From positions 1 through 51,107 of the forward strand of contig OMVV01000005.1 in the NCBI GenBank assembly GCA_900314585.1: a stretch of DNA of 51,107 nucleotides, in the 5' to 3' direction. The notes beneath the pieces were generated by a model, which ran no database searches, was not told where the DNA came from, and saw nothing but the letters and a program-made list of their open reading frames with translations. Origin of the DNA: an uncultured Erysipelotrichaceae bacterium (GTDB lineage: Bacteria > Bacillota_I > Bacilli_A > RFN20 > CAG-826). The position numbers and the translations under genes are program-made. Position 1 is the first letter of the stretch, and each line of letters opens with the position of its first letter. Positions 42,940-47,640 of this stretch are shown here, one piece after another.

Positions 42940-45900
42940 ATGAAAGTCGGTAAAAAAAGAAATAGATTCCATCTCTATAGTGCCTTAGTTGGGTTATTTG
43001 CCCTTGTCTTAGGTGTCGGAATCGCATTATCAAAAACAAATTTAAATTCGAACGCTATTTTAGGTAATCGTGTTAGTCAATCCTATTCGCTTACTTTAAA
43101 TAGCTCAAATAAAGTCACATCTGATGGTGACAAGGTTCAAAAAACAGCTCTCGGCAATGATGTTACATTTACATACTCCGGTGTTCAAGGTTCAACATCT
43201 GGTCACGTCACTTTAAATAGTGGTGGCACTCTTGTTAACAAAGATCACATCCGTAGTATTACCAGTTTTACCGCTATCTTCTCTCCTGCCGGTGCACTTA
43301 AATTTAAACTATCTTACGACAATTCAACTTGGGGTTCAGTGACCGTTATGGAATCTGGCTATACTTATAACGTTGATTCTGCTCCATATCATTTAAGATT
43401 AGATGCAACCTCCCAAGTTACACTTATTTCACTCAATATTACATATAGTTGCGTTGAAAATCCTAATGCATACGAAGGTCAAGAAACAGGCGAAGGCTTA
43501 CTCGGTGTTATCGATTTCTGGGATTCAGAAAATGCTAGCGATACAGGAACAAGCACCCTCGTCAACGCGGAATATGTTCAAGATCGCTGCTACGATAGCG
43601 ACGATACTTCGAACCGCAAGGCAGCCGACTTTGTGTCTGCAGTTTCAGCTTCCTATACTTATCAAAAACGTTATGGCGGTATCGGTCTAAGTTCTGGTAA
43701 CAATGCTGCATCTTTAGCAATTTCAATAAAAACAGGTTTTGAACCAAGTAGTGTCACAGTCATCGCTGGTTCACAATCACCAACTAAAACATTAACCCTC
43801 AATAGTTCTGGTAAGAGTGTTACTACTAACTGTACAGGCATCACTGCTCTTAACAGCACTTATACAACTTCATTAACTTGGGAATTTAATTCTGCTCCAT
43901 CAACATTAACATTCACCGCAGTGAAGAGTTCCAAACTCGCTATTTATAGAATTTATCTATATGGTGAATCTGGACCAACAATTGAACCACCAGCTGATTC
44001 GATTATTGGTTTTGGTGCATCCGATTCTAAGGCTACAAGTTATTATAGCGATGATGTCTTTGACGCCAACAACGGTTTAAGTGTTTGGGCCAACAAGACT
44101 GGCGGAGATACCGTCAACCTATCTAAGGGTGGCGAAGATGGTTATTCTTATGTCATTAAGAATAGCAATGATCAAACCATTGACACTTCTAAAGCATTCG
44201 GAACAGAAGGTATTTATACCTTAATCGTTTCCTATAAGAACTTCATTCCAGTTCAAATTCAACTTACTGTTGGCTTCCGTGTTGCTTTAACCAGCATTGA
44301 AGTTGTCAGTACAAATACAATCTTTAATACCGCTCAAAAATTGTCTGATTATACAAGCGGAATTACAGTCAACCTCACATACAATCAATCGAGTGAAAAT
44401 GAACAAAATGTTCCATATTCCTCATTTGAATCCAAAGGATTATCTCTAACACTTATTAATCCAAGCCAAGTTAATTATTCAATTACTTCATTGTTTGGTA
44501 CTGCTGGTACTTGGACAATTAAAGTTGCTTCAACAACTAATGCTTCTGTCTCTGGAACGTTGAATATTACAGTCAATGCAATTCCGGTAACCGGAATCAG
44601 TGTTACGGGTGCATCCGCAACTGTTGAAGAAGAATCACAGCTTCAATTGACTGCTTCGGTCACTCCAAACAATGCGACAGTTCAAACTGTTACTTGGTCA
44701 TCTAATCACGAAAGCATTGCTACAGTTAACACTAATGGTTTAGTCACTGGTGTCACAGAAGGTGAAGCGAGAATTACTGCAACCGCAACCGATGGTTCAG
44801 CGGTCTATGGTTATATTGATATAACCGTCACAGCCAAACCACAACAAAGTGAATTTGATGCCGACATGACCGCTGGAAGCAATGCGATGGCAGTCACCGT
44901 CGATGGAAATAGTGGTGTTAAAGTTGGAACTTCAAGTAAAGCTGGTTCTATGACAATTACTGTCGGAGCTGGTGCAACTAGATTAAGCTTTTATGCTGCT
45001 GGTTGGAATGGTACAAGCACCGTTATCAATTTAACAGGGGCAACATGTGGAACCTCATCGTTCTCATTAACTGCTGATTCAGGTATTTCTGGTTCAGGTA
45101 GTGCGTATACATTATCCGGAACCGAATCCGATTATTACTATGAAACCACTTTAAGTGGAGTTACTGAAGAAACCGATATTACCGTCAGTGCTTCAACACG
45201 TTTCGCTTTATGGAAAGCTAAATATTACACAACCGCAGTTGAACCAGTTTATCCAACATCAATTTCATTAGAAGTTGGTTCAACCAGCGTTGCTATTGGC
45301 GGAACAACCTCGGTTGAAGTTAGCTACACACCATCCGATACAAACGTTAAGAATGTTACATTCTCTTCAAATGCAACCAGCGTTGCGACGGTTAGTAGCG
45401 AAGGTATCATTACCGGTGTTGCTGCAGGTAACGCACGAATCACAGCGACTGCTGAAGCCGCAAATAGCGAAACAGTTTCCGCTTATGTTGATATTACAGT
45501 TACTGCTATTGCAGTAAGTGGTGTGACTGTTAGCCCAACTTCTGCGACACTTGATATTGGCGATACACAACAATTAACTGCGACGATTTCTCCATCTAAT
45601 GCAACTAATAAGAATGTCACCTGGGAATCTGATGCAACTGGCGTTGCTACTGTTTCAAGTACTGGTTTAGTCACTGCTATCGCAGAAGGTACTGCAACAA
45701 TCACTGTTAAATCTGTTGCCGACAATACAAAGAAAGCAACTTGTACAATTACCGTTAACGCAAGTGGTGGTTCTGGTGGTTCCTCAGGGTCCTCATTTGA
45801 AATCACGTTCTTGACAGGTAGCGGTGATGGTACTCAAATGTCGACATCAACTGCCGAATCAAGTTACTTATCTAGTGGTGAAGATTACGTAACTGGAATT

Positions 45901-47640: not shown

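Follow-up and report, generated by a model that had tools for sequence, protein, structure and literature searches.

The window analysed here is a stretch of 51,107 nucleotides from an uncultured Erysipelotrichaceae bacterium. At positions 42940–47640 of its + strand lies a single open reading frame, which begins with ATG and encodes a 1566-residue protein followed by a stop codon. The gene is surrounded by housekeeping-like genes. Positions 40446–42083 encode what we take to be a phosphoglucomutase-like protein, with an N-terminal part resembling an HTH_3 domain; the frame upstream of the protease gene is presumably left-handed-helix acyltransferase-like, and those downstream are taken to be rpsF and ssb. 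The order phosphoglucomutase-like, acyltransferase-like, C11 gene, rpsF, ssb is the same in a related genome (G008), whose copy of the protein is 79% identical across residues 5–1566; the phosphoglucomutase-like protein is 94% identical to its G008 counterpart. The flanks of the gene hold no second protease gene, and no adjoining partner gene ties it to any one substrate. The genome contains one further C11 gene, on contig 20. A terminator-like hairpin found by consensus scan lies just 3' of the gene (47658–47679, + strand; nine pairs, five of them G-C, then a T-rich tail), and promoter-like sites are no more frequent than in shuffles. Elsewhere in the window, positions 50063–50923 encode an alpha/beta hydrolase fused to an HTH domain (Pfam), and a 1516-residue frame at 16758–21308 gives no hit in Pfam up to an E-value of 1.

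The protein is a long chain of small domains with a protease at its C-terminal end; the domain boundaries were placed by eye and checked afterwards with profiles, and all coordinates below are on the + strand. Residues 1–35 (42940–43044) consist of a basic start and a hydrophobic segment (residues 12–30), the strongest of the protein (Kyte-Doolittle 19-residue mean of 2.36 at residue 12), which may be a signal peptide or a signal anchor. It is followed by N1 (residues 36–183; 43045–43488), a conserved module without a Pfam match, to which phmmer finds matches in other C11 proteins with E-values down to 6e-18 among the matches listed. The slot A module, N2 (184–350; 43489–43989), was compared by identity with five close relatives; it is absent from the initial annotation and is as exchangeable as the other modules. 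Two conserved, Ig-like-sized spacers, Ig1 and Ig2 (351–548; 43990–44583; 47–83% identity in the same five relatives), lead to Big_2 no. 1 (549–635; 44584–44844). Then come the slot B module M1 (636–768; 44845–45243), Big_2 no. 2 and 3 (769–945; 45244–45774; best Pfam stretch 858–936), the slot C module M2 (946–1086; 45775–46197), Big_2 no. 4 (1087–1180; 46198–46479; 70–92% identity in the five relatives) and the Peptidase_C11 catalytic domain (1181–1566; 46480–47637). Pfam reports Big_2 in four stretches (E 1.9e-49), in agreement with the four domains annotated initially; the motifs quoted there for M1 and M2 start at residues 659 and 1000. The idea that a stalk poor in lysine and arginine shields the protein from its own protease was rejected: K+R content is higher in 222 Big_2 domains of C11 proteins (5.57%) than in 120 domains of 57 non-C11 frames (4.65%; Mann-Whitney p 0.001).

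The catalytic domain matches the Pfam family Peptidase_C11 (PF03415) at residues 1205–1522 with an E-value of 1e-36 and a score of 127.7 bits (cut-off 25.8), and it matches the solved structure of clostripain (9cip; E 1.3e-7). The score for the NCBIfam clostripain equivalog TIGR02806, 33.8 bits, is below the curated cut-off of 550. For comparison, 102 distinct rows from relatives were aligned with the window protein, giving 103 rows, 102 of which are complete, the window's included. The catalytic His1302 (46843–46845; in the motif WNHGG from 1300) and the pair Asp1350 and nucleophile Cys1352 (46987–46995; in the motif DACLM from 1350) are found in all of these rows but one, a 73-residue fragment. 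The initial annotation had described an active-looking clostripain with an intact His1302/Cys1352 pair; both residues are where it placed them, they are invariant in all complete relatives, and at the level of sequence the protease does look active. A homologous domain, a His/Cys dyad and an acidic residue two positions before the cysteine together identify the protein, by sequence, as a member of peptidase family C11. Asp1350 is the predicted S1 residue, by analogy with Asp177 and Cys179 of PmC11, and the predicted specificity is that of an endopeptidase cutting after arginine or lysine. Two further cysteines, Cys1193 (46516–46518), present in 99 of the 103 rows, and Cys1310 (46867–46869), present in 102, could form a disulfide.

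Clostripain without its linker is reportedly active, to go by a paper title from 1996. The gating peptide of the clostripain and globupain zymogens is absent from all 102 complete rows, that of the window included. Seven residues separate the positions of His1302 and Cys1310 in 100 rows and eight in the other two; by our own count the same spacing is 16 residues in clostripain and 14 in globupain. Arg1307 (46858–46860, + strand), at the place of the P1 residue of the heavy-chain cleavage in clostripain and globupain, is not conserved, arginine or lysine occupying this position in 18 of 103 rows. In clostripain, excision of the linker 182–190, which gates the pocket, is described as opening the active site; in globupain, the seven residues before the sequence GVCWD are described as removed. 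Internal cuts are reported at Lys147 in PmC11 and at Lys137/Lys144 in globupain. Since the zymogen linker is absent, the C11 enzymes of this group probably do not need a clostripain-type maturation cut, and the window enzyme would be active on export. A cut of another kind, as PmC11 shows, could still be required. The remark in the initial annotation that no maturation partner lies nearby agrees with the locus, where none is seen; the zymogen linker is missing as well.

The initial annotation called for fold prediction of M1 and M2, with plain Ig domains as the outcome that would speak against lectin-like modules. AlphaFold2 models were obtained for M1 (residues 634–770; mean pLDDT 86.2, pTM 0.80, from an alignment of 7 sequences) and M2 (residues 949–1087; mean pLDDT 83.7, pTM 0.80, from 6 sequences), and in these models both modules are jelly rolls of the CBM6/35/36 type, not Ig domains. 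The top Foldseek matches are CBM6 modules for M1, and a domain of iota-toxin component Ib and a pectate-lyase carbohydrate-binding domain for M2, with modest TM-scores of about 0.4–0.5. With VIA-align, the best match of M1 is a CBM35 (2w1w; Z 10.7, rmsd 2.9, 119 aligned). For M2 there is a tied group at Z 10–11, which includes the N-terminal part of Ape1 (Z 10.9, rmsd 2.8, 113 aligned), CBM86 (Z 10.7, rmsd 2.8, 111 aligned) and CBM29. Toxin domains, Eph-ephrin complexes, XRCC1 and IFT25 also appear in these match lists.

Of the earlier suggestion that the modules may be carbohydrate-binding, the fold is thus upheld by both models, and a sequence counterpart is lacking: no CBM family was matched by Pfam anywhere in the protein at E up to 1, and a search of PDB sequences with the module profiles gave no match. 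The modules are therefore classed as CBM-like and not as CBM members. Because the jelly-roll fold also serves other kinds of binding, we infer the binding of glycans by M1 and M2 from the models. The two are, by sequence, distant and partial relatives, with 27% identity over 99 residues and a profile-profile match (probability 81%, E 1.3e-5) that spans 46 columns only. A recent tandem duplication was ruled out on these values, so that the description of M1 and M2 as a duplicated pair does not hold in that sense.

In a full-length alignment with relatives, two stretches of the protein fail to align though their flanks do. Five close relatives (L040, L054, L039, L044 and L043) have C11 domains 88–93% identical to that of the window protein, and across the same five the slot B module and the Big_2 repeats are 50–95% identical; the window's slot C module is found in none of them. 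In L040, the nearest relative and a syntenic orthologue, identity is 92% in the C11 domain and Big_2 no. 4 and 74% in Big_2 no. 3. Between these flanks (74–92% identical), slot C of L040 is unrelated to that of the window (z about 0), and its module groups with the L044 and L062 modules in a single family. The slot A module is 80% identical in L040 and 74% in L054, and is unrelated in L039, L044 and L043 (z of 1 or less). At the DNA level, identity between the window and L040 falls from 70% to 25–53% at codons 941–1080 and returns to 70–90%. This drop is confined to about the same codons in all five relatives, and a second one, at about codons 181–350, is seen in three. An assembly artefact was ruled out as the source of the module difference, as both frames are open and each module type is found in separate genomes.

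The exchange extends beyond the close relatives. The closest match of the window's M2 is in a C11 protein of genome G004 (L035/L122; E 2.1e-42), the catalytic domains being only 46% identical, and in six less closely related proteins slot A is filled by the family to which the window's slot C module belongs. The layout N-slot-Ig-Ig-Big-slot-Big-Big-slot-Big-C11 recurs in 13 of 101 distinct C11 proteins, under a strict rule that excludes near-same layouts (among them L043, L045, L078 and L024). The 39 slots (A, B and C) of these 13 proteins hold 11 sequence families, and the window protein and its four closest same-layout relatives carry five different module sets. In a tree of the C11 domains, the window protein and its five relatives form a short-branched, fully supported group (100/99) with differing slot C fillings. 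The slot C label changes six times on this tree, and shuffled labels gave counts as low in 200 of 200 cases; in this tree the label of L043 (Cx) was assigned by hand and may belong to family 0, and the placement of L035 and L062, on long branches, is uncertain. Elsewhere in the group there are C11 proteins with short stalks and few slots. One locus (L024; G020 contig 1, 208000–227000) carries three tandem C11 genes, of 823, 822 and 1830 residues.

M1-type modules are also present in exported frames that lack a C11 domain. In the genome of the window, a 1311-residue frame (G000 contig 19, L140:2170-6102) has a subtilase (S8) domain with Big_2 and Big_3 repeats and matches M2 weakly (E 5.3e-5), which suggests that proteases of two classes may draw on a common pool of modules. 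A 1241-residue frame (G000 contig 8, L139:757-4479) contains an M1-type module (56% identity), Big_3 and a Listeria-Bacteroides repeat; a family scan gave no enzyme domain in it.

The cell that carries the gene is probably without a wall. The window's genome has no match to PF00905 (transpeptidase), PF00953 (MraY-type) or PF04203 (sortase), while the controls responded; at 1.04 Mb and 93% completeness, absence from this genome alone falls short of proof. PF00905 is likewise missing from all 24 genomes of the same genus, the window's included, and is found in 7 of 41 genomes overall, all seven in other families of the order. In such a cell, with none of the three families matched, the protein would be either tethered to the membrane or secreted. 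As a C-terminal membrane-like segment is present in none of 101 C11 proteins, any tether would be the N-terminal hydrophobic segment. The surface location given in the initial annotation is thus plausible, given this segment, the missing sortase and the probable lack of a wall, and both an anchored and a released protein are compatible with it.

A C11 match is found in 22 of the 24 same-genus genomes and in 36 of 115 overall; since two same-genus genomes are without one, the cells may be able to do without the protease. Among the sources given in the record titles of related loci are rumen, reticulum, omasum, horse faeces, ‘Lapin’ (rabbit), and cultured Anaeroplasma bactoclasticum, and the bacterial group is mostly from ruminant and herbivore guts. 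Given these sources, glycoproteins of plants or microbes are no less likely to be targets than those of the host or its mucin, and host mucin, proposed at the outset, is not specially indicated. One paper, citing others, mentions that Anaeroplasma and mycoplasmas of the rumen have proteolytic and bacteriolytic activity.

We consider the protein to be, with a probability of roughly 55%, an exported Arg/Lys-specific C11 endopeptidase on an Ig-like stalk with exchangeable glycan-targeting modules, active without a clostripain-type cut and either tethered or secreted. The N-terminal hydrophobic segment would export the protein and perhaps tether it. The Ig-like stalk would serve as a fixed scaffold that spaces the modules, with the C11 domain at its C-terminal end. 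Slots A, B and C would take exchangeable modules, which may bind a glycan of the substrate or of a particle and so bring the protease to a glycosylated protein, where it would cut after arginine or lysine; a change of filling would shift the target. Computed here are the domains, the catalytic residues, the missing linker, the jelly-roll models, the module exchange and the absent PBP, MraY-type and sortase matches. More tentatively, at somewhat under even odds, a single conserved, zymogen-free C11 protease with three sockets may have been re-aimed at different glycoproteins by wall-less gut bacteria, through the swapping of modules between species and between sockets.

A plainer reading, to which we give a real but clearly smaller chance, is a general nutritional protease whose modules only keep it close to the cell, to plant particles or to one another, without selecting the protein to be cut, and are shuffled neutrally among many exported proteins with the same domains. 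The M1-type modules of exported non-C11 frames, the weak M2-type match in the subtilase frame on contig 19 and the short-stalked, few-slot architecture of other C11 proteins in the group all fit it; the three-slot layout, constant in 13 proteins while the fillings vary, appears to have more order than free shuffling would produce. It is unlikely that the modules change so that a wall-less cell, through its exposed stalk, evades protozoa, phages or host antibody, with the protease incidental. Variation is indeed concentrated in the stalk and N-terminus, and the catalytic domain is conserved in the five relatives; slot B and the Big_2 repeats would be expected to vary too, being equally exposed, yet they stay 50–95% identical.

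Fragipain, a C11 enzyme, is described as activating a toxin, and the window protein might similarly trim or shed exported proteins of its own cell, many of which in the group's genomes carry Big_2 and Big_3 domains. We regard this as slightly less probable again than escape: an exchangeable module set is not obviously needed for such a role, and the gene has neither a partner next to it nor a link to one substrate. That the protease is inactive and serves as a binding scaffold is very improbable, with the catalytic histidine and cysteine invariant in every complete row; no point in its favour was found.

If the targeted-protease reading is correct, the family offers a natural series in which a protease with a catalytic domain about 90% identical is combined with differing modules, so that the effect of a module on substrate choice would be directly measurable. 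It would also provide C11 enzymes that possibly work without an activation cut, and a molecular starting point for studying how wall-less gut bacteria, a little-studied group, turn over protein.

The cultured relative Anaeroplasma bactoclasticum ATCC 27112 (L069) has a C11 domain 56% identical to that of the window protein. Its 674-residue frame is taken to have one N-terminal module and one Big_2-like repeat before the C11 domain, and no multi-slot stalk. Clostripain of Clostridium histolyticum (PDB 9CIP) shares the C11 domain, the His/Cys dyad and the aspartate two residues before the cysteine (His176, Asp229 and Cys231 in its published numbering). It has the excisable linker, which the window protein and all complete relatives lack, and its pro-enzyme, described as 526 residues, is too short to include a stalk of this kind. 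PmC11 of Parabacteroides merdae and globupain share the family and the Arg/Lys preference predicted for the window protein, and PmC11 also the S1 aspartate. Both need an internal cut, whereas in the window protein and its relatives the loop is shorter and only a minority of rows carry the basic residue; the globupain heavy chain is reported to begin with GVCWD, where the window protein has GVCYD.

CBM6, CBM35, CBM36, CBM29 and CBM86 have the jelly-roll fold in common with M1 and M2 (Z about 9–11), but the two modules match none of them in Pfam or PDB sequences. Literature searches for C11 with carbohydrate-binding modules and for Anaeroplasma with clostripain found no paper, and one for clostripain with rumen returned nothing on such a protein in titles and opening lines of abstracts. 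In the Nakjang paper, CBMs are reported for 141 entries from various peptidase families; C11 and clostripain are not named in the main text, though the tables could include a C11 protein with a CBM. By analogy, the closest functional model is that of the CBM-carrying M60-like mucinases (BT4244, HC11), described as exported proteases likewise joined to carbohydrate-binding modules (CBM32, CBM51 or CBM5/12), in which CBM32 is reported to be needed for extended mucins and not for short glycopeptides. These enzymes are zinc metallopeptidases with other modules; the window protein has no Pfam match to an M60-like peptidase domain at E up to 1, and the abstracts on the mucinases describe no exchange of modules among proteases that are nearly identical. 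The design is thus a variation on a known protease-plus-CBM architecture, and what is new here, to judge from the sequences, is a fixed scaffold with three slots for exchangeable modules.
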